This document shows positions 1 through 15,920 of a stretch of DNA of 28,993 nt, one piece after another (within the stretch, counting starts at the first letter, position 1; each line of letters starts with the position of its first letter). The stretch spans positions 1-28,993 of the IMG/VR virus record IMGVR_UViG_3300031659_000061, one strand, 5' to 3'. The DNA is from a virus. Position numbers and translations under genes: made by a program. The notes beneath the pieces were generated by a model. The model saw only the letters and a list, made by a program, of their open reading frames with translations. It did no database searches and was not told where the DNA came from.

Positions 1-1304
1 CTAGGTTCTGTCATTGGACCTTTTCTCCAATCTTTCCACAATTCTTCGATCTTACCTAATGCATTTCCTATCTCAACAGAATCCATTGATTCAACATATT
101 CTTCGTTGACTGCTTTACTTTCGTATAATCCAATTATACCTTCATCATCAAGTTTTTTATATCCTTTTTTATCTAGCATAGTTAAAACATCATCCATTGT
201 ATCGTATCCAATTTCAGAGTCTAACTCTTCACTACCATTTCCAACAACAGTCCAATCATATATGAATTGGTTCCAATCATCGGTAGTAACTTCGTCTCCC
301 TTATTATAAGCTTTCATAAACGCTTTAACTATTGTCTTAGCGTCGTTTTCATTAATTACTGATTCGTTTATACAGAATTCATTAATTGATTTTAAATTTT
401 TCATAATATTGTTATTTTCTTTTATTGGACTTAGAGTATTTTGCAAAGCTTTATAAAAACTGTGTATACTTTTCGGTGTTAGTTGTTTGAATGTTTTTTC
501 ATCATCTATCTTAAGAGCATTTCTTACTTTAGATGCTGAGATGTTTTCACCTGTTCTAGGAATTTCAAAACCTTTAAAATCTGGATGAACTCCAAGTTGA
601 TCTCGGTATGCTTGCTTATCAATCATATTACCATAATCTTTTTTTCTATCAGTACCAAATCCCCACATCATTGGTTCATATGCTGGTCTTGCTGCTGCAA
701 ACATTGTATCAATTGCTCCATTAGGAACTACGAAACTTGCTTCTAAAAATGGATATTGCTTTTTCATTTTAGCAAACATTGCTTGTTGTGTATCTTCATC
801 AAATGGTCTTTTCTCTGGATCAGGCTTTCTACCTCTCACCATATAAACCACAACAGGCAAACCGTTTTCTTTATGCATTTTTTCAAATACCTTAACATGA
901 CCTAATGTAAAAGGTTGAAATCTACCAACAAACATGTTTACTGGTTTTTTACCTTGTTCTTTATGAGGAACTGATAAAGCTTCATTGATGATAGTTGTCT
1001 TTGTTGCATTCATAACTCTTTGTCCGTATGGTGATAATGAAAATGTTTTTACCCCTTCTTGATCTTCGCTTATGTTAAACAAAGTTTTGTTTCTATTTAA
1101 CCATCTCTTATGAGCTTTAAGCTCTGTTAATATTTTAGCCATTTCGTCTTCAGTAATATGACCATCAGCTATAGCTTCTATTATACTAGATCTTATTCTT
1201 GCAGATGTTGATACATTTTTTGCAGGGTGAGATTCAGTATACCGTCTTTTAACTGTTACTTTCTTTTCTGTTAAGAAATTGTTTATGTCTTTTAAGTTGT
1301 CCAT
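1..1304 (-). CDS. NadM-like nucleotidyltransferase with prohead-targeting leader (C-terminus cut by window edge)
   Basis: The frame is open from an ATG at 1304 to the left edge, 434 codons with no stop. Residues about 122-290 form an HIGH-superfamily nucleotidyltransferase. GRFQPFTLGH (127-136) carries the (H/T)xGH motif, and ISASKVR (255-261) matches the second conserved ATP-binding motif. The following LTPKSIHSFYKAL segment matches the VPKSVVEYIKEI end of archaeal NadM enzymes. This family transfers AMP from ATP to nicotinamide mononucleotide to make NAD, but other substrates (FMN, pantetheine phosphate) cannot be excluded. The N-terminus, MDNLKDINNFLTEK, resembles the capsid-targeting leaders of neighbouring genes. 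A second leader-like sequence, MKNLKSINEFCINES, begins in frame at residue 301 and opens an unrecognised acidic C-terminal domain, suggesting a gene fusion. INE-A at 106-109 and INE-S at 312-315 are candidate prohead-protease sites that would release the catalytic domain. No Shine-Dalgarno is visible. Confidence 0.78.
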   Translation of the reverse strand, partial: MDNLKDINNFLTEKKVTVKRRYTESHPAKNVSTSARIRSSIIEAIADGHITEDEMAKILTELKAHKRWLNRNKTLFNISEDQEGVKTFSLSPYGQRVMNATKTTIINEALSVPHKEQGKKPVNMFVGRFQPFTLGHVKVFEKMHKENGLPVVVYMVRGRKPDPEKRPFDEDTQQAMFAKMKKQYPFLEASFVVPNGAIDTMFAAARPAYEPMMWGFGTDRKKDYGNMIDKQAYRDQLGVHPDFKGFEIPRTGENISASKVRNALKIDDEKTFKQLTPKSIHSFYKALQNTLSPIKENNNIMKNLKSINEFCINESVINENDAKTIVKAFMKAYNKGDEVTTDDWNQFIYDWTVVGNGSEELDSEIGYDTMDDVLTMLDKKGYKKLDDEGIIGLYESKAVNEEYVESMDSVEIGNALGKIEELWKDWRKGPMTEP

Positions 1305-1319
1305 TTATAATCTATATAT

Positions 1320-4163
1320 TTACTTTTGTATTGCAATTCCCATATTAGCATTAAATGGCATTGGTATACTAGCTTTTTGCTCAAACACAAAATCTGCTGT
1401 GCTAAAGGGTACTGTTTTAAATTCAAAATTACCATTCTTAGTCTTTACATCTAAATACAATTGCTTGACATCTGTAACTATCTGTGAATACTTTGTTAAT
1501 TCTTTAGTATACTTTTGGTTAAGAGCATGAGTTAACTCAACCATTAATGGATAAAACACAACACCTAATTTGTGGTTGCCTTTGAACTTTTCAAAACCAT
1601 CAACGTTTGTTTTTAATTTTGCCTCATTCCATTCATAAGTTGATTTTTCCCAAAAGGTACGTAAGAACTTAGTAAATTCAGCTTTATCAGTATATAAATT
1701 GTCTAAGAATTCTTCAACTGCATCTTGTGTTGCATTGCTAGGCTGTAGCTCTGCTTCTTTCAAAAGATACCAGTATGCAGATTTGTTATGATCATTAAGG
1801 TTTACACTGCATAGAGACATAATCCTGCCATAAATCTTACTTCGTGCTAACTTCATAGGATTAACCCAAGTATCTATTACATTATTATAAAAATCCTGCT
1901 CACCTGCAGTTTCAAAACTCAATGGGCCTGGTACTCGTTTTTTGTCATTAGCCATTTTATAGATTCTTTGTATGATAGTATCGCCAGTTGGTGTACCGCC
2001 TTTTTTACCACCCTTTGATGATATACTGTATGTATCAAAATAGAAATCTACTAAAGGTTCACTTTCACCTGGTGGATAGCTTACACCATCACCAGGGTTT
2101 CTTAGTATGTTAAGTAGCATAAAGCCACCTAAAACTTCACCGTAGTCATTTCTGATATTCTGAATTGATAATTGATCAATACCATCAAATAAAGATTTTG
2201 TAATAGGGTATGTTATAGTGTGAACTGGTGCGTTTGCATATTCAGTAAAATCTTCAAATTTACCAGCATTTTTAGTATTACTACTAATTTCTTTAGCCGC
2301 CTCGAGCATAAAGTTTTTATAATTTTCTGGATAGTGTGAATCATTCAAGAATTTTTCTACAGGTGAAAGTAAACTTGCCCAATTTTTATAGTTAGTATTA
2401 CCCATACCTAATTTAGCTGGTGTTAAATCTTTCTTACCTACAATAGCAGCTTCCCCGGTTTTCTTAGAGATCTTATAACGATTTGTTATAATAAAGAAAT
2501 CACTAATGCCGTAAGATTGTCTTAGTTTATTATCAGTTGCTTTTTGTATAATTATTTTATATGCAGCATAATCACTAGAAAGATAACCAACTGGTAATTC
2601 TTCGATCTTAAACGATCTTTTCTTTAAACCTACTACATTTGATATAAGAAATTTTTCGATAGCAGCTTCTGCTGTCCCATCATTAGGACCAAAGTTACCC
2701 CTAAGTACTTCACCATGATCGCCAGTTCTATTTGAAACTTTAACAAAATCAGTTATCATTTTCATCTTGGTAGTATATTGCTTATATGCCTTTATCCAAA
2801 ACTTCTCAACATCACCCTTTGTAATTTTCTTTGCTTCATTTATATTGTCTTCATTAATATCAATCTTACCTAAATGAATAAAGTTATTATAATTAAGAAC
2901 TTTTTCTTCTACTACAAGTTCCTCTAAATCTTTGTAGTTTATAGTCTCTGTAACTTTAGTATTTAAGTAATCCCCGAATGTTTTGAATTCACCATCAGTT
3001 TCTTTATTAATTGCATCTGTGATTTTATCAACCATCTTGTTAAAATCTTCTACTACTGATTTTGTCATGATCGAACCTACTCTCTCAGGATTTCTTTTCT
3101 TCCTTAAAGATCCAACCATTATTTTATATAAGTTTTGTAAAGATTCAGATTTTTGTAATATTTCCCTGGTTCTATTATTTTTAATTAAGTCTAAATTTAA
3201 ATTAAACTCTGGGCCTTTTGCAAACTTTGCCTTTTCAATATCTAATTTTTGAAGATCAACACCTCTCTTGGCTATATAATCATTAAACAGATTTGACATT
3301 AATTCTAAGTATCTTTCTTCAGGTACTGATGTCAATAGTTCACCGCCACGCAATCCTCGCTCTTCGACGAATGCTAAGATATCTAATAATAAGATTTCAT
3401 TAATATCAGCAGGAGCTCTTCTTAAATCAATAGGTTCTTTATCTTTCATTAATCCTTGTGTATAAGGATCAATCATTTTTGCAGTAAATATTTGATTAGT
3501 GCCTTGTTTAAAAAACTTAAAGATTATAGAATCTATCGGTTTGTCTAAATCGTTTTGTAGCGTTGTTTGTTTGATCGTTGGATTTAATGCATCAATTAGA
3601 TATTTAGCAAATGAACTAGTTCCAAATACCTCTAACTGATCTTCCTTTGGTGTTTCAAGGAATTCTCTAATCTTTTTCTTTTGTGCTTCTTTTAAATAAC
3701 CACTAAAAATTGGAATAAGTGGAGTTACGTCAAAAGCAGAGGACCAATCTCTAAGTACCCTAGGATCTTCGATTACTTTGGCAATCTTTCCCTTTGGGTT
3801 TCTTACTTGTATATGTGTAAGTAATAAATTATTAGTTGGTAAGTTATCATACTTGATTGCACCAGGCTGGTTGTTAACAAAATATTGGAAACAGAATCTC
3901 CAATATTCTGGCAAGTCTTTTATATGACCTTCGGTTTTATTTAGAATGTATTGAATTGCTTGTTCATAATACATCATTAGTGTCCTGTCCACTAAATTGA
4001 TTGGTTGCTTATTGCTACCTTTAAAAAATCGTAGTTCATCGCCATGTCTCTCAAACGAGAATGACGATCCTGATAATTTCTCAGTCACCAATAAGTAATC
4101 TTTAAATAGATCATCTATGAATTGCTGCCCGGTTTCTTTATATATGTTTGTTAACTCTTTCAT
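1320..4163 (-). CDS. 947-aa protein with degenerate ligase-type nucleotidyltransferase N-terminus and unknown C-terminal region
   Basis: I do not recognise the whole protein. Residues 1-235 look like a diverged member of the covalent nucleotidyltransferase (DNA/RNA ligase) superfamily. EKLSG with K29 is in the place of motif I (KxDG). YWRFCFQYF around Q93 is in the place of motif III, where glutamate is usual. DSIIFKF (211-217) followed by FTAKM with K229 stands for motifs IV and V. The order and flanking residues parallel the KTDG protein encoded at 5067-6338. Three key acidic positions differ (KxSG for KxDG, Q for E in motif III, D for E in motif IV), so it may be catalytically dead or structural. 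The remaining ~700 residues are lysine-rich, mostly helical-looking and without a motif I can name. The start follows a promoter-like element and a terminator, so the gene probably heads its own transcript. Its N-terminus lacks a clear prohead leader. Confidence 0.8.
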   Translation of the reverse strand: MKELTNIYKETGQQFIDDLFKDYLLVTEKLSGSSFSFERHGDELRFFKGSNKQPINLVDRTLMMYYEQAIQYILNKTEGHIKDLPEYWRFCFQYFVNNQPGAIKYDNLPTNNLLLTHIQVRNPKGKIAKVIEDPRVLRDWSSAFDVTPLIPIFSGYLKEAQKKKIREFLETPKEDQLEVFGTSSFAKYLIDALNPTIKQTTLQNDLDKPIDSIIFKFFKQGTNQIFTAKMIDPYTQGLMKDKEPIDLRRAPADINEILLLDILAFVEERGLRGGELLTSVPEERYLELMSNLFNDYIAKRGVDLQKLDIEKAKFAKGPEFNLNLDLIKNNRTREILQKSESLQNLYKIMVGSLRKKRNPERVGSIMTKSVVEDFNKMVDKITDAINKETDGEFKTFGDYLNTKVTETINYKDLEELVVEEKVLNYNNFIHLGKIDINEDNINEAKKITKGDVEKFWIKAYKQYTTKMKMITDFVKVSNRTGDHGEVLRGNFGPNDGTAEAAIEKFLISNVVGLKKRSFKIEELPVGYLSSDYAAYKIIIQKATDNKLRQSYGISDFFIITNRYKISKKTGEAAIVGKKDLTPAKLGMGNTNYKNWASLLSPVEKFLNDSHYPENYKNFMLEAAKEISSNTKNAGKFEDFTEYANAPVHTITYPITKSLFDGIDQLSIQNIRNDYGEVLGGFMLLNILRNPGDGVSYPPGESEPLVDFYFDTYSISSKGGKKGGTPTGDTIIQRIYKMANDKKRVPGPLSFETAGEQDFYNNVIDTWVNPMKLARSKIYGRIMSLCSVNLNDHNKSAYWYLLKEAELQPSNATQDAVEEFLDNLYTDKAEFTKFLRTFWEKSTYEWNEAKLKTNVDGFEKFKGNHKLGVVFYPLMVELTHALNQKYTKELTKYSQIVTDVKQLYLDVKTKNGNFEFKTVPFSTADFVFEQKASIPMPFNANMGIAIQK

Positions 4164-4184
4164 TATTAGTTTTTAGTTATACCT

Positions 4185-4194
4185 TTTATATATT
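4185..4194 (-). promoter_or_regulatory. Late-promoter-like element AATATATAAA
   Basis: On the minus strand this reads AATATATAAA and ends 21 bases before the ATG at 4163. The same ten bases, or nine of them, precede the genes starting at 8620, 14435 and 25887. It resembles the T4 late promoter (TATAAATA, at -10, with no -35 box). It lies just downstream of a hairpin terminator at 4210-4238, as expected at a transcription-unit boundary. No transcription data support it. Confidence 0.5.
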
Positions 4195-4209
4195 TGATTG
4201 TTTAAGAAC

Positions 4210-4238
4210 AAAAAAGGTGAGACATTTAACTCACCTTT
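4210..4238 (-). terminator. Rho-independent terminator after the 108-aa gene
   Basis: AAAGGTGAG (4213-4221) pairs perfectly with CTCACCTTT (4230-4238) around an eight-base loop. On the minus strand the stem runs into six T residues (4215-4210). It lies about 40 bases past the stop codon of the gene at 4279-4605 and before the promoter-like element of the next gene, so it probably ends the transcript coming from the right. Confidence 0.8.
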
Positions 4239-4278
4239 AATACACTTAACGTGATTTTAATATATTATTACATTAGCA

Positions 4279-4605
4279 TTATGATATGTCCATGTGGTCA
4301 CCGTAGTCACATACTATACCCTTTTTCTTTAGTTGTTTACAAATCTTATCAAGTTCATCCGTTTCGTATCTACTTGGTACTTCATCTTTGATACCAATAG
4401 ACTTTAATAATTCATTAGTTGCATCTAAACTAATTTTAGATTTTTTACTAACATTTGCAGTTTTAGCAACATCATATAAAGATGTTCCATAAAATTTACC
4501 ACCCTGTTCAGTATAAACAAAATCAATTCCCTTGATGCTAAAGCCTTTACCACTTCGATCTTTGTATTTAATAGCCTCAGTTATAAATTCATTAAAGTTT
4601 TTCAT
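4279..4605 (-). CDS. Small putative encapsidated protein with prohead leader (108 aa)
   Basis: The function is not recognised. The N-terminus MKNFNEFITEA is nearly the same as the capsid-targeting sequence of T4 internal protein III (MKTYQEFIAEA). A prohead-protease cut is predicted after E10. The rest (residues 11-108) is a small basic domain with a lysine-rich middle (KKSKIS) and a C-terminus containing two cysteines. The start codon lies one base past the stop of the gene at 4607-4966, so the two are probably translated together. The gene is followed by a strong terminator. It is best read as a candidate internal or core protein carried in the head. That rests on the leader and the neighbours, since no domain family is recognised. 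Confidence 0.75.
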   Translation of the reverse strand: MKNFNEFITEAIKYKDRSGKGFSIKGIDFVYTEQGGKFYGTSLYDVAKTANVSKKSKISLDATNELLKSIGIKDEVPSRYETDELDKICKQLKKKGIVCDYGDHMDIS

Positions 4606-4606
4606 A

Positions 4607-4966
4607 TTAGTCTAATTTAGATTTACCATCCCATACTTTAACAGTATAATCTTTACCATCTTTTTCTAAGTACCTAGGATCTTTTTTAGTCGGTCTCATT
4701 AATAATCCAGCAGAATTTGCATTTCTACCATGATCACCTTGTTTCATTGTGTTTTTTCTCCATGAAGAACCGCCTGAAAAATAAGATGAAAACTGACCAC
4801 GATTATCTCTGTCATCTGGATCTAAACCTTTTAAAGTTAAAATAAATTTCTGCAAGTCTCCCCATTTAGATTTACCTTTCTTTTCAGCAAAATCCAAAAC
4901 TTGTTTTTTGATTGTTTCCAATTCGTTTGATTCATTTAGAGAATCGTAGCTATGCATATGTTTCAT
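4607..4966 (-). CDS. Small putative encapsidated protein (119 aa)
   Basis: The function is not recognised. The N-terminus, MKHMHSYDSLNES, is a looser version of the leader shared by the neighbouring genes, with NE-S as the candidate cleavage site at residues 11-13. Residues 15-50 look helical and lysine-rich. The middle is rich in Gly, Ser, Arg and Asn (about 55-90), and the C-terminus is basic and charged. The protein resembles small internal or core proteins of T4-like heads in size and charge only. It is separated from the next upstream gene by 100 A/T-rich bases (4967-5066) in which I see no clear terminator. It is separated from the downstream 108-aa gene by one base. Confidence 0.68.
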   Translation of the reverse strand: MKHMHSYDSLNESNELETIKKQVLDFAEKKGKSKWGDLQKFILTLKGLDPDDRDNRGQFSSYFSGGSSWRKNTMKQGDHGRNANSAGLLMRPTKKDPRYLEKDGKDYTVKVWDGKSKLD

Positions 4967-5066
4967 ATCTTTTGTATTTTTATTATATTATAAATATAAT
5001 CAATTTTGTTTAGTTTCGTACTATAAACTCTTGTTTTGTTTTGGAAAGTTATTAACAATCTTAAAA

Positions 5067-6338
5067 CTATCTACCGTACCTCATAATACCCATCAACTGA
5101 TTAATTGCAGCAAAAGTTCCAGTTAATTTATAAGTAGTACCTTTGTACTTAAATACAAGACCTTCTGTTGGTATGATTGATTCTACTCCACCAATCCTAT
5201 CTAATCTTTCAAGTTCTTTAGTTACCTTTTCAATCTGGTCTAAACTACCACTCTTTTTAATACCTTCTGCTGCTGCTTTGATTTGCTTGTGAAGTCTTTG
5301 CATTTCTTTAGTAGGATTAGCTGCTACGAAGTTACTTGCATTCTTTAATATAACACTCCCTAACTCTAAGAACAGATCTTCAAACGGTCTAATGTTTTCT
5401 TTTTGTTTCTTTTTAACATCTTCTTTATCAAACTTCTTAATGATTGCTGCCTTTTCTTTACCTAGATCTTTATCAAGAGATCTTAGATTAAGTGTCTTTT
5501 TATCAGCATATGCCCATCTTAATAATAAACCTTCTTTTTGCTGTTGTGATAGTTCAGGGAAGTTTGCTTCGATTTGATCTCTCCACCACATTTCGTGATA
5601 TTTTGAAACCTCATCGTCGTCTGATAAATTATATACATTCTTCAAGTCTTCAACCTTTTTAATAAATTTAGCTACATTTTCATCAAAGTTAATATCCTTT
5701 CTTAATGCTAGAACCTTTGGAGGGATTATCGTAAAAGTTTTACCGATATCCGATTTAAGCTTCTTAAGAACTCCGGCTATTTTTTTAGCAGCAGATGGAT
5801 CATCTCCAATAATTTTACCATCACCGTCTGTCTTTTTAATACCATGAAATTGTATAACATCAATATCATAATGGATAACATTAGGATTCTTTGAGTATAT
5901 TAATTCCATATTCATGAAGTTCTTACCATTATCAAATACTTCATCCTGTGTTTTAACTGGAAGCTTTATTAATAAGTTTGCTAAATCAGCGGCGGCAAAC
6001 TGAAAAGTATCCTGCACTAATTTACTAGCATGACCGTCAAACTTTTGATTAATTCCTTGTAAATCTAAAGGTGATCTCATTTCACCTTGATTTCTTGCGA
6101 ATTTAACTTCACCGTCTTGTATTGTAGCAAATAAGTTTTGGCCATCTGTTTTTTCTGTAGGTGCTTCCTCGAAATTCAATTCACCACTTAAACCAGAATT
6201 AATGAGATTTTTAAAGTCTCTAAATGTTAAGTTCTTATTATCAAATGGATGCTTCATATGACCAGCAGCTCCACCTTCTAACAACAATGGCTGACTTTTG
6301 TCAGTCAGCCATTGTTCAAACAGTTTTATATGTTTCAT
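5067..6338 (-). CDS. ATP-dependent ligase-type covalent nucleotidyltransferase with prohead-type leader
   Basis: The protein has the signature motifs of the DNA/RNA ligase superfamily, which attach AMP to an active-site lysine. Motif I is TEKTDGQ with K63, followed by FARNQGE with R82. Motif III is FMNMELIY with E145. Motif IV is TEGLVFKY with E392 and K397, and motif V is TYKLTG with K404. About 240 residues separate motifs III and IV, far more than in a minimal ligase, and this insert is helical and lysine-rich. No OB domain follows motif V, and the protein ends at residue 423. The N-terminus MKHIKLFEQWL, with LLLE-GG at 18-22, fits the leader and cleavage pattern of the neighbours, so the enzyme may be carried in the head. 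Whether it seals RNA or DNA cannot be told. A 13-bp perfect hairpin lies within codons 8-19. Confidence 0.8.
   Translation of the reverse strand: MKHIKLFEQWLTDKSQPLLLEGGAAGHMKHPFDNKNLTFRDFKNLINSGLSGELNFEEAPTEKTDGQNLFATIQDGEVKFARNQGEMRSPLDLQGINQKFDGHASKLVQDTFQFAAADLANLLIKLPVKTQDEVFDNGKNFMNMELIYSKNPNVIHYDIDVIQFHGIKKTDGDGKIIGDDPSAAKKIAGVLKKLKSDIGKTFTIIPPKVLALRKDINFDENVAKFIKKVEDLKNVYNLSDDDEVSKYHEMWWRDQIEANFPELSQQQKEGLLLRWAYADKKTLNLRSLDKDLGKEKAAIIKKFDKEDVKKKQKENIRPFEDLFLELGSVILKNASNFVAANPTKEMQRLHKQIKAAAEGIKKSGSLDQIEKVTKELERLDRIGGVESIIPTEGLVFKYKGTTYKLTGTFAAINQLMGIMRYGR
6283..6316 (-). repeat. 13-bp perfect inverted repeat inside the start of the ligase-like gene
   Basis: AACAATGGCTGAC (6283-6295) and GTCAGCCATTGTT (6304-6316) are perfect reverse complements separated by eight bases. 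The structure is inside the coding region, about 20 bases downstream of the ATG. It is not followed by a T-run on the minus strand, so it is not an ordinary terminator. A stem this close to the start could slow translation initiation or be a binding site. Confidence 0.8.
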
Positions 6339-6376
6339 TTAGTTTATATTTTACTTTAGTTTATATTTTACTTTAG
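6338..6376 (-). repeat. Tandem 17-bp repeat with promoter-like TATAAA cores before the ligase-like gene
   Basis: TTTAGTTTATATTTTAC occurs twice head to tail (6338-6354 and 6355-6371), followed by five bases of a third copy. On the minus strand each unit reads AAATATAAACTAAA and so carries a TATAAA core. The repeat fills nearly the whole gap between the stop codon of the 151-aa gene and the ATG of the ligase-like gene. It may be a doubled late promoter or a translation enhancer, and the sequence does not decide between them. Confidence 0.7.
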
Positions 6377-6379
6377 AAA

Positions 6380-6835
6380 TTATTTAAGGTTTCCTTTAGA
6401 ATCACCTGCAGCATATGCATATCTACCTTCACCACCTTCATCAGCAACAATAATCACTTTTACATCTCCTAGCATTCCTTTATATGCTGCTGTATATGGG
6501 GCTGGCCACATTCCTGTTGCACGTTGCCCGGAGATACTATTATCATTCCCAAGTAAGTCAGCTTTTTTATCTTTAGGGTCAAATTTTGCATCATCATTAG
6601 TAGATGCAACCATTACCATATCAGCAACAGATCTTACTCCTAGATATTTTAAAGCTGGTTTATAATTTTTATTAACATCAGCCAGTGTTAATTCTTTCCC
6701 ATTATCATCATAACCATCCCCATCGCGTAAAACGGTAGAAAGAGTGTTGTAAGGACCGCTCTGAACCCAAGATGGTAATTCGGCTTCATTAATTGATTCA
6801 TTTACAAATTCTGCAAACTTTTTTATATTATTCAT
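6380..6835 (-). CDS. Putative encapsidated protein with prohead leader (151 aa)
   Basis: The function is not recognised. The leader MNNIKKFAEFVNES has the F-x-x-F-V-N-E-S pattern, and a second possible cleavage site, INE-A, follows at residues 16-19. After it comes a compact acidic domain rich in Asp, Gly and Ala. It has a predicted strand-rich C-terminal half (residues 110-145) ending in AYAAGDSKGNLK. No catalytic motif or membrane segment is visible. The gene is 18 bases downstream of the 588-aa acidic protein gene and 41 bases upstream of the ligase-like gene, within the run of leader-bearing genes. It is probably a head-interior cargo or core protein, a role based on the leader alone. Confidence 0.72.
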   Translation of the reverse strand: MNNIKKFAEFVNESINEAELPSWVQSGPYNTLSTVLRDGDGYDDNGKELTLADVNKNYKPALKYLGVRSVADMVMVASTNDDAKFDPKDKKADLLGNDNSISGQRATGMWPAPYTAAYKGMLGDVKVIIVADEGGEGRYAYAAGDSKGNLK

Positions 6836-6853
6836 ATCTTTAGTTTAGTTTTA

Positions 6854-8620
6854 TTATGATCCCATAGTAGATTGTAAAGCTCCAACCATTGCACCATAGT
6901 CTCCATCATGTTTAGAAATTAAACCGTCAATTACTTCAGTTGCTTTAGCTTCATCATAATCATCACCGAATGCTTTTTTCAACACTGCAGTTGCGTATTC
7001 TTTGAATTGATCATCAGAAGTAATATCTTCCTCATTAATCTTAGCTTCTTTTACTAATGGAATTTCAATGCCATCTTCAGATACATCGTTTGCCTCATCA
7101 GGAATTACTTCAGTAACCTTTTGATCTGTTGTAACTAATTTACCAGCTAATGCAGATAAGTTTTTAACTTTACCCTTATTCATTATATCACCAGCAATAC
7201 CAGCTGCAGTTTCTGAACCATCACCTTTAATTGTTGGAATAGCAATACCGTCAGCTCCAGCTACTTGATCTTTTACTTCAGCTTTTTCAACTTTAGCAAT
7301 TACTTCAGCAACACCTTCTTTAACATGCACGTCTTTAGCCCACTGAATATAACTCTCATCACCTTGTTCAAAATCAGATATAATAGTCTCTAAATCTTTT
7401 TTATCATACCCAGCAGATTTACCGAGTTTCAAAAATGATCCTTTTGATTTTAGATCCTTATCAGTTAAATCATTAAACCAATCTAATAAGTTACTTTGTT
7501 GTTTAGCTTCTTTAACTGCTTTAGGTTTACCCTTTGCGTTTACTTCATCTTCGATATCCTCGGCGCGATCTTCATCAACCTCATCTTCATAATCTTCTTC
7601 ACCTTTTTTGGTTTTAGATTTATCACCTTTATTTCCACCAAGTGTTACTTCATCAAAACCTTCATCAGTTTTATCATCATCTTCATAATCTTCTTCATCT
7701 TCTTCAGACTCAGAATCATCACCTTTATTTCCACCCCAAACAACTTTGTCATAGGCTTCATTTACAAAATTAGAAAAAGACATAATAGCAGATTCATTCT
7801 TTTCAGCATCTTCCTCTTCCTCTTTATCAAACTTAGCATCTTTCTTTAAAGATTTGATTTGAGCATCATCAGATTTAACAGCTCCTTTATAATGGTCTGC
7901 TTTTTCTTTATCATCCTCAGAATCAACTTTCTTATCTCCTTTGTCTTCTAACTCATCACCATCTTTTTCATCGTCCTTTCCTTTTGACTCATCGGACTCT
8001 GAAAGGGGATCAGCAGAAGCAGCAACAGGAACAGCATAGTCTTCTTCTTCTTCATTATCATCACGATAATTAACGTTCTTATTAATAGTTTCTTCTTTTT
8101 CTTTAATGAAATCTTCAAAAGCCATAATTCTTTTGGTAGCTTTAGGTGTTTCAACTTCTTCATCAGCAACAGGAACTCCATCTTCATCTGATACTTCATC
8201 AGCTTCTTCTGGTACTTCCTTTGTAACTTCTTGTTCATCTGATACTAAATCATCATCGGCTTCTTCTTCAGTAGCATCTTCCTCTACTTCTTCGACTTCA
8301 GCAGCAACTTCTTCTTCACCTTCTTTAGATTTAGCTTCACCTTCTACAGATTTAGGTTTACCTTTTGCATTTACTTCATCTTCGATATCTTCAGCACGAT
8401 CTTCTTCAAGATCTTCTTCAGAAATATTATCTTTATTGGCAAAGCTTTTGGATAGTGCTTCTAGTTTAGAAAGAAGATCTTTCTCTTTCTTTAATTCATC
8501 TATACTGTTAAAACCAATCTTTTTGATCAATTCTTCGACAGCTTCTTGGCTTACTTTTGCAGATTCTGTGATCGGTTGATCCTTAGCAGACATTGCAGAA
8601 AACTTTTTGACTGATTTCAT
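6854..8620 (-). CDS. Very acidic mosaic prohead core/internal-type protein (588 aa)
   Basis: The start is taken at the ATG at 8620. The open frame reaches 8812, but the extra 64 codons lie mostly inside uvsW, and the 8620 start gives a leader, MKSVKKFSAMSAKDQPITES, with a cleavage-like ITE-S. Long stretches are Glu/Asp-rich. Two further leader-like sequences lie inside, each preceded by Ile and headed by Met: MAFEDFIKEK (from residue 166) and MSFSNFVNEA (from 280). EDRAEDIEDEVNAKGKPK occurs at 73-90 and 350-367, GGNKGD twice (296-301, 328-333), and PEEADEVSDEDG-like blocks at 137-148 and 507-517. The C-terminal part (about 375-430 and 535-588) looks folded, ending in a helical segment. Acidity and leader suggest a scaffold/core or internal head protein like T4 gp22, gp67 or gp68, processed into several pieces. 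No homology to those is claimed. Confidence 0.78.
   Translation of the reverse strand: MKSVKKFSAMSAKDQPITESAKVSQEAVEELIKKIGFNSIDELKKEKDLLSKLEALSKSFANKDNISEEDLEEDRAEDIEDEVNAKGKPKSVEGEAKSKEGEEEVAAEVEEVEEDATEEEADDDLVSDEQEVTKEVPEEADEVSDEDGVPVADEEVETPKATKRIMAFEDFIKEKEETINKNVNYRDDNEEEEDYAVPVAASADPLSESDESKGKDDEKDGDELEDKGDKKVDSEDDKEKADHYKGAVKSDDAQIKSLKKDAKFDKEEEEDAEKNESAIMSFSNFVNEAYDKVVWGGNKGDDSESEEDEEDYEDDDKTDEGFDEVTLGGNKGDKSKTKKGEEDYEDEVDEDRAEDIEDEVNAKGKPKAVKEAKQQSNLLDWFNDLTDKDLKSKGSFLKLGKSAGYDKKDLETIISDFEQGDESYIQWAKDVHVKEGVAEVIAKVEKAEVKDQVAGADGIAIPTIKGDGSETAAGIAGDIMNKGKVKNLSALAGKLVTTDQKVTEVIPDEANDVSEDGIEIPLVKEAKINEEDITSDDQFKEYATAVLKKAFGDDYDEAKATEVIDGLISKHDGDYGAMVGALQSTMGS
7520..7573 (-). repeat. 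54-bp direct repeat, copy 2 (partner at 8351-8404)
   Basis: This copy and 8351-8404 encode the same 18 residues. They differ at five bases, all silent third positions (CGC/CGT, GCC/GCT, GAG/GAA, AAC/AAT, AAG/AAA). This copy has G or C at every one of the five. Confidence 0.85.
8351..8404 (-). repeat. 54-bp direct repeat, copy 1 (partner at 7520-7573)
   Basis: This copy encodes the same 18 residues as 7520-7573 (EDRAEDIEDEVNAKGKPK) and has A or T at each of the five differing third positions. It is the N-proximal member of the internal duplication in the acidic mosaic protein. Confidence 0.85.
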
Positions 8621-8638
8621 GTTAGTTGTTTTATTTTT

Positions 8639-8648
8639 TTTATATATC
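8639..8648 (-). promoter_or_regulatory. Late-promoter-like element GATATATAAA
   Basis: The minus strand reads GATATATAAA, nine of ten bases matching the element before the genes at 4163, 14435 and 25887. It ends 18 bases before the ATG at 8620. This supports 8620 rather than 8812 as the start of the acidic protein. Confidence 0.48.
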
Positions 8649-8675
8649 CATGTCTTACTTAAAAGATATTCTATA

Positions 8676-10181
8676 TTAGAATCTGATGTTTTGTACATCA
8701 AACGGAAACTTTTCTTCTTTATATATTGTTCGCCTAGCAATACCATGTCTATAAACGTAATTAACCCAGTCATGTTCCTCGGCTTTATATCTAAAATCAT
8801 CAATAAAGTCATAGATTTTCACTACATCCTTTGATTCATGTTTTCTTAATCCCCTACCTATACTTTGTCTAATGATCACTTCTGATTTAAAACTTTCAGT
8901 GAAGAATATGTTATGTATATTTTTTATAGATATACCGGTTGAGAATGTTCCATATGATGCTACAATAATAACATCATCGTTTTTTTCCATCCTGGCTTTA
9001 AACTCTTCTCTTATATCTACATTAACTGAACCATCTACATAGTAAACTTTCTTGTCAGTTATTTGTCTTAGTTTTTGATACACCTTTTCGCCGTATGCTA
9101 TTTTATGAAATAGTACTAATGAATTTGATGTTGATTTTTTAATTACTTGGCAAACAAAATCTAATCTTTTTTCACTTTGATTAATAAAGTTTTGTTCTAA
9201 TCCAAATAATTTCTGTCTATCTTGTGGGTTCTTTGAAAGAAACGAGAATGATTCTTTCTGAGCATCAGTTGCATAATCCATGTGGAGCTGCATAACTTTA
9301 CATGAAGCAATAAATCCTTGCTGTTGTAATTGGCTTGCCTTTACTTGAGTAACCAAAGGTCCCATTGCCGACATTAAGCTTAGTCTATTAACAGTTCCTT
9401 TCTTAGGTATTGTTCCACTTAAACCAAACCTAAAATCACAGTGCCAACATTTATCCATTATCTTTTGAATAGATGCAGCTTTTGCTTTATGAGTTTCATC
9501 GACAAACACAGCATCAAATTGACTAAAGTATTCCTCATCTTTTTTAACTAGCGATTGGTATGTACCTATTACTAAGTTAGAACTTTTTCTAATCTCTGCA
9601 CCTGCATATACTTGCTGAGTCTTTAATGGAACGCCACACCTGTTATATTCATCGAAATCACCAGTAGCTTGTAATACTAAATTTACATTAGGAACAATCA
9701 TTAAGATTTTTTTCTTTCCTAACTTATCCATCATATATGCAACTACCATAAAGGATATTAGAGTTTTACCTGCAGATGTTGCAAGCTCAGCTAAACACCT
9801 TCTATATTTTAATATTTTAAATGCTGCATCTATTTGATATTCTCTAGGTTTGAAATTAGGGTGTTTTTCAAAAATACTTGTTACCCATAACCTAAATGAT
9901 TCTTCGTTGATGTCAGTATCAAAAATATCAGTGATACCATTTAAAGAACATTGGAAATCATAATCTTTACAGATATCTAATATCTCTTTCCATAAACCAG
10001 CTGGTATTTTATTTCTTTTTACAAAGGAGACGTTACCGTCCCATACTTTCTTTTTAACTAAAGGATGAAATCTCCACCCTTCAATCTTTTTAGTTAAACT
10101 GCTCTTCAACTGCTCGTACTCTAATTCAGTACATGCATCGATGACCAAAAACTTTTTATTTTCTGATAGGGATAGTTCCAT
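8676..10181 (-). CDS. uvsW: UvsW-type superfamily 2 DNA/RNA helicase
   Basis: At 501 aa this is the same size as T4 UvsW (503 aa). Superfamily 2 motifs appear in order: REYQ near 113-116, Walker A ATSAGKT (134-140), the DEAH-type box DETH (228-231), motif III LSGT (254-257), the motif V region around TGISIK (415-420) and motif VI QSIGRGLR (439-446). The first ~100 residues correspond to the N-terminal DNA-binding domain seen in T4 UvsW. In T4, UvsW unwinds R-loops and D-loops, drives branch migration and helps switch from origin- to recombination-dependent replication. It lies three bases downstream of the uvsY-like gene, as uvsW and uvsY are neighbours in T4. Its 3' end stops 55 bases before the start of the acidic head protein. 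Confidence 0.95.
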   Translation of the reverse strand: MELSLSENKKFLVIDACTELEYEQLKSSLTKKIEGWRFHPLVKKKVWDGNVSFVKRNKIPAGLWKEILDICKDYDFQCSLNGITDIFDTDINEESFRLWVTSIFEKHPNFKPREYQIDAAFKILKYRRCLAELATSAGKTLISFMVVAYMMDKLGKKKILMIVPNVNLVLQATGDFDEYNRCGVPLKTQQVYAGAEIRKSSNLVIGTYQSLVKKDEEYFSQFDAVFVDETHKAKAASIQKIMDKCWHCDFRFGLSGTIPKKGTVNRLSLMSAMGPLVTQVKASQLQQQGFIASCKVMQLHMDYATDAQKESFSFLSKNPQDRQKLFGLEQNFINQSEKRLDFVCQVIKKSTSNSLVLFHKIAYGEKVYQKLRQITDKKVYYVDGSVNVDIREEFKARMEKNDDVIIVASYGTFSTGISIKNIHNIFFTESFKSEVIIRQSIGRGLRKHESKDVVKIYDFIDDFRYKAEEHDWVNYVYRHGIARRTIYKEEKFPFDVQNIRF

Positions 10182-10184
10182 TAA

Positions 10185-10634
10185 TTAATATTCTTTATCG
10201 TCCAGGTTTATTCTGTTACGAATAGCGAATGCTAGATTATCGCAAGTCTTTATACATTCTTGGTAATAGTCCATGTGGGATTGTAGCATTTCCATCTGAG
10301 TTCTTAAATGACTCAAATCAGCTTTGATGAAAGCAACCTTTTCGCCGCTTGTTAATTTAATATCATATTCTAATGAATACTCCCGATATTTAATTTTATA
10401 ATAGCGATCATATGCTGCTTGCCTTTTATGTTTAGTCGTTTTAAAATCTGTAATTTTATCTAACAAGATTTGCCTGTAAGATAACATAAGTACTTGACAT
10501 TCAGCCAAGTTGCTCATTTCTTTTAACAAACCAACAAGGTTAGTTATCTTTTCTTTCCAGTTAGATCGGTCAGTAGCTAATCTAGTTGCTAGAACCTCAT
10601 TAGCCTCACCTGTTGATGTATCATTGTACTCCAT
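10185..10634 (-). CDS. uvsY: UvsY-like recombination mediator
   Basis: At 149 aa it is close to T4 UvsY (137 aa) and occupies the place next to uvsW. The protein is almost wholly helical and charged. It keeps the pattern of the family: a helix with an L..Y core, a basic middle (KTTKHKRQAAYDRYYK), a turn, then a long C-terminal helix ending in CDNLAFAIRNRI. T4 UvsY has CSGALDAIKSRGFAI at the corresponding place. UvsY loads the UvsX recombinase onto gp32-coated single-stranded DNA. The start overlaps the stop of the 72-aa gene (TAATG), so translation is probably coupled. The assignment rests on length, pattern and neighbourhood, and the primary sequence identity is low. Confidence 0.68.
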   Translation of the reverse strand: MEYNDTSTGEANEVLATRLATDRSNWKEKITNLVGLLKEMSNLAECQVLMLSYRQILLDKITDFKTTKHKRQAAYDRYYKIKYREYSLEYDIKLTSGEKVAFIKADLSHLRTQMEMLQSHMDYYQECIKTCDNLAFAIRNRINLDDKEY

Positions 10635-10852
10635 TAGAATATACCTTTATCATTATTAATCTTCTTGTAGCTCTTTACTTTGGGTTGAAACTTCTTTTTA
10701 GGTTCAGGTATTGAGAACTTAGTTTTAACTTCTCCTAATACTGATTTACTAAATTTAGAAAATAACCTAAGTTTTTTACCATCCTCTTCTGCATCTTTAT
10801 AAAAATCATCTAGTTCTTCGCTCACGAAATTATTATATTTTTGTATACTCAT
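10634..10852 (-). CDS. 72-aa protein with prohead-type leader inside the recombination operon
   Basis: The function is not recognised. The N-terminus MSIQKYNNFVSEE has the same shape as the head-cargo leaders (Y-x-x-F-V-S-E). The rest is strongly basic toward the C-terminus (EPKKKFQPKVKSYKKINNDK), which suggests nucleic-acid binding. It overlaps both neighbours by one base (TAATG on each side), between the primase and the uvsY-like gene. In T4-like phages small accessory genes are common in this place. The leader could mean the protein is packaged, or the resemblance could be chance in such a short protein. Confidence 0.65.
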   Translation of the reverse strand: MSIQKYNNFVSEELDDFYKDAEEDGKKLRLFSKFSKSVLGEVKTKFSIPEPKKKFQPKVKSYKKINNDKGIF

Positions 10853-11928: not shown

Positions 11929-11933
11929 ATTTA

Positions 11934-12860
11934 TTAAAGATCTAACCCATTAATGAATTCATCAAAATCTTCTTTTTTCTCAGTACCGCCCGATGTTGGA
12001 GCAGCTTGAGTTTCAGTTTTTGTTTCAGTCGTTACTTTAGTTGCAGCGGCTTCAGTTACCTTTGTATTAACCGGTGCTGGTTTTGATCTTGTGATGTTTT
12101 GTATTGAATCACCTGGAGAATGGAACTGAGATAATACTCCCATTACCTTTCCTCTAACAGTATCATCCCATGCCTTGTAACCCCAACCATTTAAATCTGG
12201 TGCTGTACCTAACAATTCTAAAATTGCTTTACGGCTTGCATCATCATTAGTAACCGGTTCACCGCCGATTGTCATTGGAGATTTATTTCCATGGAATTTA
12301 CTTGAGTCATAATTTGGAAAACCACCCTTCTTAGAAATTACTAATTCAAAGTTTTTTCCTTCGAATGGATCAAACACTTGAGTTGGCTCGTCGAATTGTG
12401 GATTCAGTTCTTCATCAATTTTAGTTTTGATTTTATAACCGAATTTCATAATTTTAACTTGTCCTTCTAAGTCTCTATTTTGTGGATCTTTTACGATTTG
12501 TACCAATGCATAGAATACTTCTCTACGCTTTAAACCTTCTGACATCTTTTTATCTACTGCAGATTCAGAGTTTCTTAGTTTAAAGAACATATCCTGTACT
12601 GGACATTTTTCTCCAACTGTTGAAGGGGAATCAGCATAAAAGCCGTTTCCTTCTCTGTCTTCTAGCCAGTAGACATATTTACGTTCGAATGGTTTTCTTG
12701 GGTTTTTTGCATTAGGTAGAAACCTAATTAAAGATCGGTAGATACCGTCTTGTCCTTGATCTGGTTTAGGTGTGTATAAATCGCTTCCTCCTGTGGAAGG
12801 TCTTTCACCAGTGTCTAAATCTTTTACACTTACATTAAAAATGTCGAATTCGTTTGCCAT
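11934..12860 (-). CDS. 32: Single-stranded DNA-binding protein, T4 gp32 type
   Basis: At 308 aa it is close to T4 gp32 (301 aa). The core OB-fold region includes YWLEDREG, GEKCPVQDMF, the FYALVQIVKDP strand and FDPFEGKNFELVISKKGGFPNYDSSKF; the last closely matches T4 [22 protein letters not shown]. The C-terminal tail is Thr/Glu/Ala-rich and ends in the acidic DFDEFINGLDL, the tail that recruits replication partners. Only one cysteine is present (C86 in KCPV). T4 gp32 binds zinc with three cysteines and a histidine, so the zinc site appears lost. The gene has a long leader (12861-13018) with a promoter-like element and a bulged stem. T4 gp32 represses its own translation at such a leader, so similar control is plausible. 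Confidence 0.93.
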   Translation of the reverse strand: MANEFDIFNVSVKDLDTGERPSTGGSDLYTPKPDQGQDGIYRSLIRFLPNAKNPRKPFERKYVYWLEDREGNGFYADSPSTVGEKCPVQDMFFKLRNSESAVDKKMSEGLKRREVFYALVQIVKDPQNRDLEGQVKIMKFGYKIKTKIDEELNPQFDEPTQVFDPFEGKNFELVISKKGGFPNYDSSKFHGNKSPMTIGGEPVTNDDASRKAILELLGTAPDLNGWGYKAWDDTVRGKVMGVLSQFHSPGDSIQNITRSKPAPVNTKVTEAAATKVTTETKTETQAAPTSGGTEKKEDFDEFINGLDL

Positions 12861-13018
12861 GTTAATTGCCTTTTTTTTGTTATTATTATTAATTGTTTAT
12901 AATTGATAACAAAGCTCTGTGCCTAAACTATTATTTAATTTGCCTATTTACTTTGCCGTGTTATCGCCTGTTTAAAAAGTAACCATTTAATTATTGATTC
13001 CTTTGTTTATTATATATT
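12861..13018 (-). promoter_or_regulatory. Leader of gene 32: promoter-like element and bulged stem
   Basis: AATATATAAT (13009-13018, minus strand) matches nine of ten bases of the late-promoter-like element and lies 148 bases before the ATG. Downstream, 12905-12914 (GATAACAAAG on the plus strand) can pair with 12959-12965 and 12951-12954, leaving a four-base bulge. The last bases before the ATG are A/T-rich, with an eight-A run followed by GGCAATTAAC. AGGCAA followed by TTAA occurs twice. T4 gene 32 carries a structured 5' leader for translational autoregulation, so a similar function is likely, though no pseudoknot is proved. Confidence 0.5.
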
Positions 13019-13027
13019 CACTAAGTC

Positions 13028-13039
13028 AGTTTGTTTCAG
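13028..13039. repeat. 12-bp inverted repeat, left arm, at the 3' end of the co-chaperonin gene
   Basis: AGTTTGTTTCAG spans the stop codon of the co-chaperonin gene and is the exact reverse complement of CTGAAACAAACT at 13348-13359. The two arms bracket that single gene. Confidence 0.7.
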
Positions 13040-13320
13040 ACTACATGAATATTTTTATCTATTATTGCAGTTATATCGTTTTCTCGTAAACTAAATACAG
13101 TATTGCCATCATATTTAAATTCAGTACCTGCTAAATCATGAAAAAGAACCTTTATACCAATTTGATATTCTGCATCTTCTACACCATCACCAACACCAAT
13201 GATCATTCCTGAATATGGCGGAGCATACATACCGTCTTGTTTGACTAAAAGTATACTACCTTTTCTATCTGGTTGTTCGTCCTTTTTTAAAAATATTCTA
13301 TTCCCTAGAGGTTTTAACAT
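13036..13320 (-). CDS. 31: GroES/gp31-like co-chaperonin
   Basis: At 94 aa it has GroES length and is shorter than T4 gp31 (111 aa). The order of segments is that of the Cpn10 fold: MLKPLGNRIFLKKDE at the start, a mobile loop around residues 18-33, YSGMIIGVGDGVED, KVLFHDLAGTEFKYDG and a closing SLRENDITAIID strand (GroES has SESDILAIVE). The loop sequence (DRKGSILLVKQDG) differs from GroES, as expected for a phage version. Phage gp31 replaces GroES on host GroEL, mainly to fold the large capsid protein. The gene stands alone between gaps of 175 and 93 bases and is bracketed by a 12-bp inverted repeat, which may mark separate regulation. Confidence 0.88.
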   Translation of the reverse strand: MLKPLGNRIFLKKDEQPDRKGSILLVKQDGMYAPPYSGMIIGVGDGVEDAEYQIGIKVLFHDLAGTEFKYDGNTVFSLRENDITAIIDKNIHVV

Positions 13321-13347
13321 ATTATTTTAAATTTAATTAGTGTAAAG

Positions 13348-13359
13348 CTGAAACAAACT
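13348..13359. repeat. 12-bp inverted repeat, right arm, upstream of the co-chaperonin gene
   Basis: CTGAAACAAACT lies 28 bases upstream of the co-chaperonin ATG and is the exact reverse complement of 13028-13039. The arms are about 310 bases apart, too far for a simple hairpin in mRNA. Confidence 0.7.
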
Positions 13360-13413
13360 CCACTAGTTGCAATATAATTTTTAACTATTGAATTGAAGAA
13401 TAGTATCTAATTG

Positions 13414-14073
13414 CTAGTTATTTGCTTTTAATGCTTTAAGTATAAAGTAGGCATCAATGATATCGTCTATAGGTTTTGGTATTTTAATGCTAAAGTCTTT
13501 ACCTTGAGTCCATTTCCAAAGTTTAGTTGATCTTAAGTTCTTATCGTTTAGGACATCATCTTGGAATGCTTTAGCCATATAATGTTTGTTTGCATTTCCT
13601 TTACCAGCTAACTTCTTTACATGAGATGGTTGAAATATAGATAGATTCTCAATTGTATACTTTTCTATTAGTTCCTTTCTTAAAAATGTATTATATTGAA
13701 TAATGTCTATAAATGAATTCCCTTTGGATCCGTACGAGAAACCTTCAAGTGCAACTGATACCTCGTCGCCTTCAAATAGTGTAGAAAAAATGTTGACCAT
13801 TAATGAACTAATATTACCAGCATCTTCTAATTTCTGACGCTCCCTGGGTAAAAACTCTTTGCTTGTTACCTCTCTATTATATGGAAATCCTAGCATAGCA
13901 GAATCATCCATGAGTTCTTTATGTACACTAAATGATTTGGGTATCTTTTTACCCTCTTCATCCCATATACGATTCCCATAATTAAAAAAAGTTATAAAGT
14001 GGTATTTACCATCAGCAGTTTCAATACATACTCCTGGGCTATTAAGTGAAAAGTCAATTCCTATATTAATCAT
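13414..14073 (-). CDS. RuvC-like / RNase H-fold nuclease
   Basis: The protein has the acidic signature of RuvC-type Holliday junction resolvases. The first strand is NIGIDFS with D7, VALEGFSYG carries E110, and DDIIDAYFILKAL supplies D203, D204 and D207 in the last helix. QPSHVKKLAGKGNANKH (149-165) matches the positively charged loop and helix before the last acid, similar to the KPSxVKKxxTGxGxAxK pattern of RuvC. At 219 aa it is longer than bacterial RuvC (about 170), because of an insert after the first strands (residues 30-80). It probably resolves branched DNA during recombination or packaging, a job done in T4 by the unrelated gp49. It starts five bases past the stop of the glycine-zipper gene. 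Confidence 0.8.
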   Translation of the reverse strand: MINIGIDFSLNSPGVCIETADGKYHFITFFNYGNRIWDEEGKKIPKSFSVHKELMDDSAMLGFPYNREVTSKEFLPRERQKLEDAGNISSLMVNIFSTLFEGDEVSVALEGFSYGSKGNSFIDIIQYNTFLRKELIEKYTIENLSIFQPSHVKKLAGKGNANKHYMAKAFQDDVLNDKNLRSTKLWKWTQGKDFSIKIPKPIDDIIDAYFILKALKANN

Positions 14074-14078
14074 ATTGT

Positions 14079-14435
14079 TTATATTCTCTTACCGAGAACT
14101 GCACCTAGCGCAGCACCAACAAGACGTGAAGTCATTAAATCATACAAAGCACCCTTTTGGATACCTAGAACTTTAGCAATTGCCTTTCCTATAGTTTTAC
14201 CTAAAGCAAAACCAGTAAGTCCACCAAATATACTTCCCAATATACCTTCGCTTACAATTTCATCTACTACAGTTTCTAAATCCTTCCCGTTCTTATGCTC
14301 TTCCATAATTCTGTCTACTGCCATATCAATAGCTGCATCCTGTTCCTCGGTTAAAGTATGTGATTCATTTAGTAGTTTTTGGATATCTACACCATCATCA
14401 TGTGATTCTGTTAAATAGTCTTTAAAGGTTTTCAT
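14079..14435 (-). CDS. Glycine-zipper protein with prohead leader (118 aa)
   Basis: The N-terminus MKTFKDYLTES is one of the best matches to the T4 internal-protein leader (MKTYQEFIAEA), with a second candidate site LLNES at residues 21-25. An acidic helical stretch follows (27-62). The C-terminal half has small-residue-rich hydrophobic segments with glycine-zipper spacing, GSIFGGLTGFALGKTIGK (67-84) and LVGAALGAVLGKRI (105-118). This arrangement, a packaged leader and a membrane-inserting tail, fits a head-carried protein that enters or crosses the host membrane during DNA entry. That role is inference, and it could also be a small holin-like or capsid-lattice protein. A strong promoter-like element lies 17 bases upstream of the ATG. 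Confidence 0.75.
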   Translation of the reverse strand: MKTFKDYLTESHDDGVDIQKLLNESHTLTEEQDAAIDMAVDRIMEEHKNGKDLETVVDEIVSEGILGSIFGGLTGFALGKTIGKAIAKVLGIQKGALYDLMTSRLVGAALGAVLGKRI

Positions 14436-14452
14436 TTTGAGTTCTTTATTTG

Positions 14453-14462
14453 TTTATATATT
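14453..14462 (-). promoter_or_regulatory. Late-promoter-like element AATATATAAA before the glycine-zipper gene
   Basis: The minus strand reads AATATATAAA, identical to the element before the genes starting at 4163 and 25887, and ends 17 bases before the ATG at 14435. It overlaps the stop codon of the tail-tube-family gene by two bases. Confidence 0.5.
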
Positions 14463-15917: not shown

Positions 15918-15920
15918 GGG

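Follow-up and report, generated by a model that had tools for sequence, protein, structure and literature searches.

The window analysed here is the whole 28,993-base stretch of IMG/VR virus record IMGVR_UViG_3300031659_000061, which encodes T4-like UvsW, UvsY, primase and gp32 together with a GroES-like protein, a RuvC-like protein and a tail tube. Our subject is a short N-terminal leader on eight of its open reading frames (ORFs), which an earlier note on this DNA had likened to the capsid-targeting sequence (CTS) of phage T4. The eight N-termini are as that note had listed them, each being read from a minus-strand ORF (Table 1).

Table 1. Leader-bearing ORFs of the window and putative sites within them; in the text each protein or family is named by the position of its first base
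Feature	Coordinates	Strand	Remarks
ORF open at the window edge (1304)	3..1304	minus	Leader, N-domain, NMNAT/cytidylyltransferase-like domain, second leader, cassette, conserved C-terminal domain
Leader of 1304, MDNLKDINNFLTEK	1263..1304	minus	M1, N3 and E13 invariant, F10 nearly so (11 aligned sequences)
Candidate cut IINEAL in 1304	975..992	minus	Before NMNAT-like domain; EAL invariant in 11 (NEAL 9, TEAL 2)
Second, internal leader of 1304, MKNLKSINEFCINES	360..404	minus	M300, K301, N302, L303, S305, F309 and E313 (L022 numbering) invariant, 11 sequences
Variable cassette of 1304	111..359	minus	VINEN to just before VNEEYVES
Third conserved site of 1304, YES-KAVNEEYVES	87..125	minus	Before C-terminal domain; N387, E388, Y390 and E392 invariant
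108-aa protein (4605)	4279..4605	minus	Leader MKNFNEFITEA at 4573-4605; strict core at 11/15 loci
119-aa protein (4966)	4607..4966	minus	Leader MKHMHSYDSLNES at 4928-4966; looser pattern kept in 12/12 loci
423-aa ligase-like KxDG protein (6338)	5067..6338	minus	Leader MKHIKLFEQWLTDK; candidate cut LLLE/GG; looser pattern in 66/68 loci
151-aa protein (6835)	6380..6835	minus	Leader MNNIKKFAEFVNES, then INEA; strict core at 15/18 loci
Acidic 588-aa protein (8620)	6854..8620	minus	N-terminal leader 8561-8620; 98/100 loci fit looser family pattern
72-aa protein (10852)	10634..10852	minus	Leader MSIQKYNNFVSEE; strict core at 124/125 loci
118-aa protein (14435)	14079..14435	minus	Leader MKTFKDYLTES, then LLNES and LTEE; strict core at 130/132 loci

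Relatives of this DNA are frequent in IMG/VR, a UvsW relative being encoded in 143 stretches and a gp32 relative in 177, and the best 80 of each set yielded the 136 loci from which homologues were drawn to count conservation. We defined a strict core as aromatic-x-x-aromatic-[ILV]-x-E within 17 residues of a methionine, with internal methionines as the control. The pattern that the earlier note had written for all eight proteins holds in this strict form for four families (4605, 6835, 10852 and 14435) and for the others only in a looser one: the strict core is absent from 1304 (0/33, with isoleucine for the first aromatic), 4966 (0/12, which has a shorter YDSLNE form), 6338 (0/68, with aspartate for glutamate) and 8620 (0/100), while their looser family patterns are kept, 1304 being judged from an alignment of 11 sequences. 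Neighbouring leaderless genes (seven core genes and a 947-aa gene) have the strict core in 0/961 cases. Apart from 6338, the seven window leaders contain [ILV]-x-E with A, S, K or E as the next residue. The 8620 start is an in-frame ATG of a longer ORF (6854-8812) that overlaps UvsW in its upstream part; when the ATG nearest to that of the window is taken as the family start at each locus, relatives share this methionine and the residues that follow. Three of the 18 loci of the 151-aa family begin otherwise, their starts being possibly misplaced, and at four of the 15 loci of the 108-aa family the same body bears another leader, MKYVKPLNEA. The first 18 residues of 4605 give a weak match to the PHROG annotation 'internal head protein' (E 0.058), on which we do not rely, and a DNA pattern search of the window record gave no match. 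Leaders of the same genome were compared for silent codon differences in order to distinguish old sharing from recent copying; the outcome was mixed (0 to 6 per pair; one pair in record G012 has 13/14 residues in common and 4 silent differences), and we draw no conclusion on that point.

The leader is also concentrated at protein starts in larger genomes, as a search of a whole phage genome for the motif, proposed in the earlier note, has borne out in a relative. In this relative, G001, which has 181,663 bases and includes head genes, a regular expression built on the window's eight N-termini (R1) matches 13/211 initiator N-termini and 2/931 internal methionines (odds ratio 30, p 1.6e-8), in a test that was not blind since the G001 N-termini had been inspected before R1 was written; in the window itself the figures are 5/23 and 2/131. 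The strict core gives 23/525 initiators against 9/2313 internal methionines over four related records, which share orthologues and are thus not independent, and 21/662 against 2/1707 in LR756500, a distant 462-kb phage taken as a second lineage, part of whose sequence had been inspected beforehand; protease proteins were excluded from all counts of the strict core at starts. These final censuses used the longest non-overlapping ATG as the start; the first two, made with a Shine-Dalgarno-weighted start caller, had shown weak enrichment or none, because that caller misplaced several starts.

The bodies behind the leaders are unrelated, as had been claimed for the window: among 19 leader-bearing G001 bodies no pair is matched by blastp at 1e-3, nor is any among 12 from G012. 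Of 25 picked LR756500 bodies, six leucine-rich-repeat-like ones are paralogues and a few other pairs match; five such leader-bearing paralogues, read by eye as leucine-rich-repeat-like, lie at 13446-15077, 180972-181730, 198758-199531, 331856-332545 and 313382-313912, and it is possible that they are injected leucine-rich-repeat proteins. By eye about 20 G001 proteins are tagged (17 listed, two more, and one with a non-ATG start), and by R1 the number is 13. The leader sets consist mostly of unnamed proteins, together with a SnoaL/CaMKII_AD-domain protein and a DUF5824 protein in G001; when ten G001 leader proteins were compared with Pfam these two were the only ones assigned, seven giving nothing and the eighth a sub-cutoff coiled-coil. 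The earlier note had regarded equal frequency of the motif on replication genes as a refutation. None of the 21 G001 proteins with a named S-SM1 homologue matches R1, which agrees with the note as far as it goes; set against 13/197 of the rest (p 0.26), the difference is not significant by itself because the proteins are so few. One of the 21, the homologue of the cytidylyltransferase T4-GC190, has the leader by a looser expression (R2); among the remaining 20 are genes for replication, recombination, transcription and packaging and for the portal, capsid and tail. The G001 DNA end protector (gp2-like, 15891-16469) starts MALIGSFTEDLDLYLTENKG, which matches the leader expression and is a candidate leader only. 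Directly after the capsid gene lies a charged 356-aa protein (L138 2041-3111, G001 22041-23111) that starts MAKLKTYSEFLNEG and has SFEYVAES near its end, so that it is leader-like at both ends. The match to a gp43-like DNA polymerase in G001 (4728-5852) is an ORF of 374 aa only, and members of this group may have a split polymerase.

A gp21-like protease gene, another expectation of the earlier note, is present in G001, where it matches PF03420 (S77) at E 6e-16, above the cut-off, and the head maturation protease phrog_207 at E 2e-40. The protease is followed in the same protein by tandem 14-residue repeats of the form Y-[TSA]-[EDN]-[YH]-[ILV]-[AGS]-E. A protease frame was obtained from 79 of 80 fetched loci, and removal of redundancy left 14, one of them truncated. 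Strict cores number 6-8 in each of these 14, or 9-11 if His, Ala and Met are also accepted; most keep to a constant 14-residue spacing, and FMNFL[ST]E is present as well. The capsid protein itself begins MYANQLINEA...HNLNES. The leader thus resembles one unit of the scaffold repeat, and a tagged protein might for that reason enter the prohead core as a scaffold unit would.

The likeness to T4 is also as the earlier note had described it: ipII and ipIII read MKTYQEFIAEA, and FGSFLTE of gp23 ends exactly at residue 65, the propeptide length given in the available part of a published account (PMC9026906). Among 24 T4 proteins (8587 residues) the strict core occurs three times, one of them being the gp23 cut. 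In the T4 leader, according to the same partial source, targeting is set by residues 4 and 7 and processing by residues 8 and 10, and aspartate at position 10 stops processing while leaving targeting intact (PMC9026906). The T4 spacing is exact in window leaders 4605 and 14435; the core is offset by two or three residues in 6835 and 10852, and 1304, 4966 and 8620 fit loosely.

The 1304 ORF extends the system beyond a single leader on a single body. It matches Pfam PF01467 (37 bits, cut-off 21), TIGR00125 (31.9, cut-off 27.7) and phrog_395/3041, and carries GRFQPFTLGH and ISASKVR, which we take to be the (H/T)xGH and ISxSxxR motifs of the superfamily; against NMNAT proper the best NCBIfam model gave 24.9 bits with a cut-off of 127. 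In relatives the order is: leader, N-domain, EAL, NMNAT domain, a second leader of the MKNLKS type, a variable stretch, NEEYIE and the C-terminal domain. To compare the variable stretch we took 51 sources (50 loci and the window), of which 50 gave a frame, 34 a complete tail and 24 distinct tails; the 16 frames lacking a complete tail ended at contig ends or in an early stop, or had another architecture. Five cassette sequences are found among the 24 tails, some of which have no cassette and one of which, L306, has two, one type being followed in tandem by that of the window; since this tandem joins two types, automatic clustering yields five groups. NMNAT domains are 85% or more identical in 100 of the 219 between-group pairs (the no-cassette group included), and cassette identity in those 100 reaches 28% at most. 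Between groups that both bear cassettes the closest NMNAT domains are 92% identical and the cassettes 23%, and in one pair whose NMNAT identity rounds to 100% one member has a whole cassette and the other none. A search for a second family with swapped cassettes, made with a 300-aa G001 protein, returned five loci. The AlphaFold model of the ORF (mean predicted local distance difference test, pLDDT, 52) decides little because the whole N-domain, like the cut sites, is of low confidence, below 50; in the model of the 423-aa protein the leader residues are also below 50. Judged by its sequence, the ORF resembles a string of domains that includes a second leader and exchanged cassettes.

Leader-like sites also occur inside other tagged proteins. 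Beyond the first 30 residues, and with the protease and capsid protein set aside, [ILV][NT]E[AS] occurs 11 times per 4018 residues in 17 hand-listed G001 leader proteins and 19 times per 45,523 in 193 others, a 6.6-fold excess (p 1.3e-5); with two less strict motifs the excess is 3.8-fold and 4.9-fold. The Asp (1.0), Lys (0.9) and reversed (0) control motifs do not exceed background. Because the 193 others include two more leader-like proteins, the comparison is biased against the result. In the G001 SnoaL protein VNEN (123-126) stands just ahead of the domain (130-249). The acidic 588-aa protein contains the internal leader-like segments MAFEDFIKE (8099-8125) and MSFSNFVNEA (7754-7783) and a late site, INEEDITS (7016-7039), in an alignment of 16 sequences.

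For packaging the nearest experimental evidence comes from cyanophages. The T4-GC190 protein of S-SM1 is a distant homologue of the window NMNAT-like protein (26.9% identity over query residues 64-280, E 4e-5), in a match that excludes the leader, and it begins MKKFSAFLNEA. T4-GC190 was detected among 41 proteins of purified S-SM1 virions, as stated in the available part of the study (PMC3037559), and this leader-bearing homologue would give direct, if distant, support for packaging. With annotated starts the leader is present on five of nine GC190-type proteins (S-SM1, Syn19, ACG-2014f_US26, S-CAM7 and P-SSM4) and absent from four (S-PM2, Syn1, RaK2 and Cr30); since those of Syn1 and RaK2 open directly with the enzyme, enzyme and leader are separable. 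We considered S-PM2 as a natural experiment and set it aside: in the portion of that study available, its leaderless homologue is undetected in the virion, but so are seven structural proteins of T4 type, and the non-detection therefore says little (PMC3037559).

The second candidate enzyme is the 423-aa protein, in which KTDG, NMELIY, EGxVFxY and KLTG are kept in 20 aligned sequences; these are presumably ligase-type motifs. When its model was compared with known structures the first 23 VIA rows were all ligases, with weak scores (Z 5.4 to 4.7). A Foldseek search with the same KxDG model gave a best E of 0.87, no ligase family appeared among its Pfam or NCBIfam matches, and phmmer and profile searches of solved structures returned no ligase or NMNAT relative. 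GC71 is annotated beside GC190 in S-SM1, Syn19, S-PM2, P-SSM4 and Syn1, with KxDG in the three GC71 proteins checked, and in Microcystis phage Mel-JY01 a domain bearing GRFQP is fused to a protein related to the 423-aa one (33.9%). The NMNAT-like and ligase-like enzymes probably act in concert, and any part for them in NAD or RNA repair as infection begins is conjecture. The Mel-JY01 fusion gene (L236 11243-13162) is leaderless and lies close to terminase, protease and capsid genes. In the window a leaderless 947-aa protein (1320-4163) has EKLSGSS at the place of the ligases' KxDG, and a part akin to it by eye forms the N-terminal portion of proteins in LR756500 and L340-L344, fused to an NMNAT-like domain. 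Elsewhere in the window, the 839-aa protein encoded at 18403-20922 looks structural and, close to the N-terminus, has a brief collagen-like run of G-x-y.

We consider it highly probable that the leader is a capsid-targeting propeptide of the T4 type, in an expanded system with polyprotein-like cargo. On this view a tagged protein starts with a short amphipathic segment that ends in [ILV]-x-E, would join the prohead core like a scaffold unit, and would be cut by the prohead protease, which by analogy with T4 should cleave after the Glu of leaders, of scaffold repeats and of the capsid propeptide; the freed bodies would remain in the head and presumably be injected with the DNA. As the NMNAT-like protein seems to be a chain of domains joined by sites of the same type, a single leader could import several separable pieces, of which the one following its second leader has been swapped among close relatives. 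The fuller proposal is more tentative, and we hold it at somewhat less than an even chance: that the leader is a detached unit of the scaffold repeat, through which cargo gains entry by mimicking scaffold, that cargo polyproteins have prohead-protease sites between their domains and middle cassettes passed among near-identical phages, and that a changeable kit of 20 or so effectors, NMNAT-like and ligase-like enzymes included, is delivered at infection. The earlier note had not described the scaffold repeat, the internal leaders or the exchange of cassettes, and among the top-listed open-licence literature we noticed no report of leader-like scaffold repeats or of polyprotein cargo.

Several results weigh against this interpretation and should be set beside it. 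Four of the eight window families do not have the strict core, and 6338 has no Glu in register. The window is without head genes, and the protease was seen in one of ten records searched, the other nine being shorter fragments; because the window fragment ends short of the head genes, a prohead protease can only be presumed for its own genome. The T4-like phages PTm1 (of Tenacibaculum) and Mel-JY01 both encode a related protease, yet neither is enriched for the strict core at starts (2/294 against 3/968, and 1/234 against 0/918 respectively), nor is S-SM1 (1/209 called proteins against 2/732 internal methionines). A position-specific scoring matrix made from the scaffold repeat, applied at threshold 8, gave p 0.09 in G001, 1.0 in G002, 0.10 in G012, 0.02 in G004 and 2.5e-4 in LR756500, so that by itself it separates starts from internal methionines weakly in G001 and not at all in G002. 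T4 gp22 gives a single weak match and lacks a tandem array of this kind, though it has 20 [LIV]-x-E triplets. Among internal sites, a fourth G001 control, [KRDE][NT]E[AS], reached 2.1-fold (p 0.28); in G012 the excess is marginal (3/2090 against 11/34378, p 0.04, with D and K controls of 2.7 and 2.1), and in LR756500 there is none (1/4757 against 33/114231). The acidic 588-aa protein looks more like core than cargo and, from its composition and internal leaders, is probably a prohead-core component. In the literature covered we noticed no virion analysis of this phage group.

That last protein is the best argument for the view that tagged proteins are mainly parts of the prohead core, degraded in maturation and not destined for the next cell, for it is conserved, highly acidic and provided with several internal leaders; the leader-bearing 356-aa protein adjoining the G001 capsid gene points the same way, and in T4, by the available part of one account, many fragments arise from the cleavage of gp22, gp67 and one more core protein (PMC9026906). 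Against it, two bodies are a cytidylyltransferase and a SnoaL/CaMKII_AD domain, for which no scaffold reason is evident, cassettes are exchanged between relatives, and a leader-bearing homologue was found in S-SM1 virions (PMC3037559); we think this view improbable as a general account. Less probable still is that the leaders direct proteins to the head and stay on, the Glu junction being incidental. The Asp of 6338 at the cut position would suit this, given the effect of Asp at position 10 in T4, but [ILV]-x-E is present in the other seven window leaders and recurs throughout the scaffold. We give slightly less weight again to a localisation tag for some other place, such as membrane, replication factory or tail; localisation data for this phage group were not found, and both the match of the leader to protease-scaffold repeats and the T4 gp23 cut and the virion location of the tagged S-SM1 homologue argue for the head.

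A different objection concerns only the internal leaders, which might be internal translation starts of nested genes and not polyprotein cuts. The second NMNAT leader and both internal leaders of the acidic protein open with Met, M300 is invariant in 11/11 sequences, and T4 gene 21 has an internal start, as noted in the available part of the same account (PMC9026906); the frame, however, is open through the junctions in 11 aligned sequences, and IINEAL, NEEYIE and similar sites lack Met. In L329 and L333 the NMNAT frame stops soon past the second leader. We regard nested starts as unlikely, though more credible than any of the other alternatives. Chance, or a general bias towards amphipathic N-termini, would fit the weak early counts obtained with a poor start caller, and the patterns were not picked blind; but start-specific enrichment relative to internal-Met controls in two separate lineages, and the conservation of leaders where neighbouring genes have none, make this explanation scarcely tenable.

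If the capsid-targeting interpretation is right, the leader is a sequence rule that points to injected proteins in a phage group common among metagenome virus records, and in a huge phage. Most genes of those phages are nameless, and dozens of such proteins would become candidate time-zero effectors, such as restriction inhibitors or enzymes of NAD or RNA repair. A further implication is that a single tagged gene may deliver several separate proteins through protease-cut linkers and offer exchangeable slots for new ones.

Among known systems, cyanophage T4-GC190 shares both the leader (in S-SM1) and the cytidylyltransferase domain, but its similarity is distant and no second leader or cassette was noticed in the S-SM1 sequence. 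In SPN3US several inner head proteins likewise have N-terminal propeptides cut after Glu, but these are mostly long (111 to 127 residues, one of 20) and have an A-x-E motif, according to the part of the report available (PMC5694885). Salmonella phage Munch, compared by annotation alone, and PTm1 have an annotated prohead core scaffolding protein and protease; in PTm1 the scaffold half reads otherwise and the N-termini are unenriched for this leader. The closest parallel is the T4 CTS, carried by IPI-III and Alt and cut by gp21: here too a short N-terminal leader stands on unrelated bodies, with hydrophobic or aromatic residues at 4 and 7, [ILV] at 8 and Glu at 10 (as in IPIII), and with an S77-family protease in a close relative. 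The T4 internal proteins have the leader alone in common, and at least ten tagged proteins are reported across related T-even phages, in the portion of one source available (PMC12373910), T4 itself having four in the corresponding portion of another (PMC7411985). The present system differs from T4 in the number of tagged proteins, about 20 in G001, in a scaffold of tandem leader-like repeats fused to the protease where T4 gp22 is a separate protein, and in polyprotein-like cargo with swapped cassettes.

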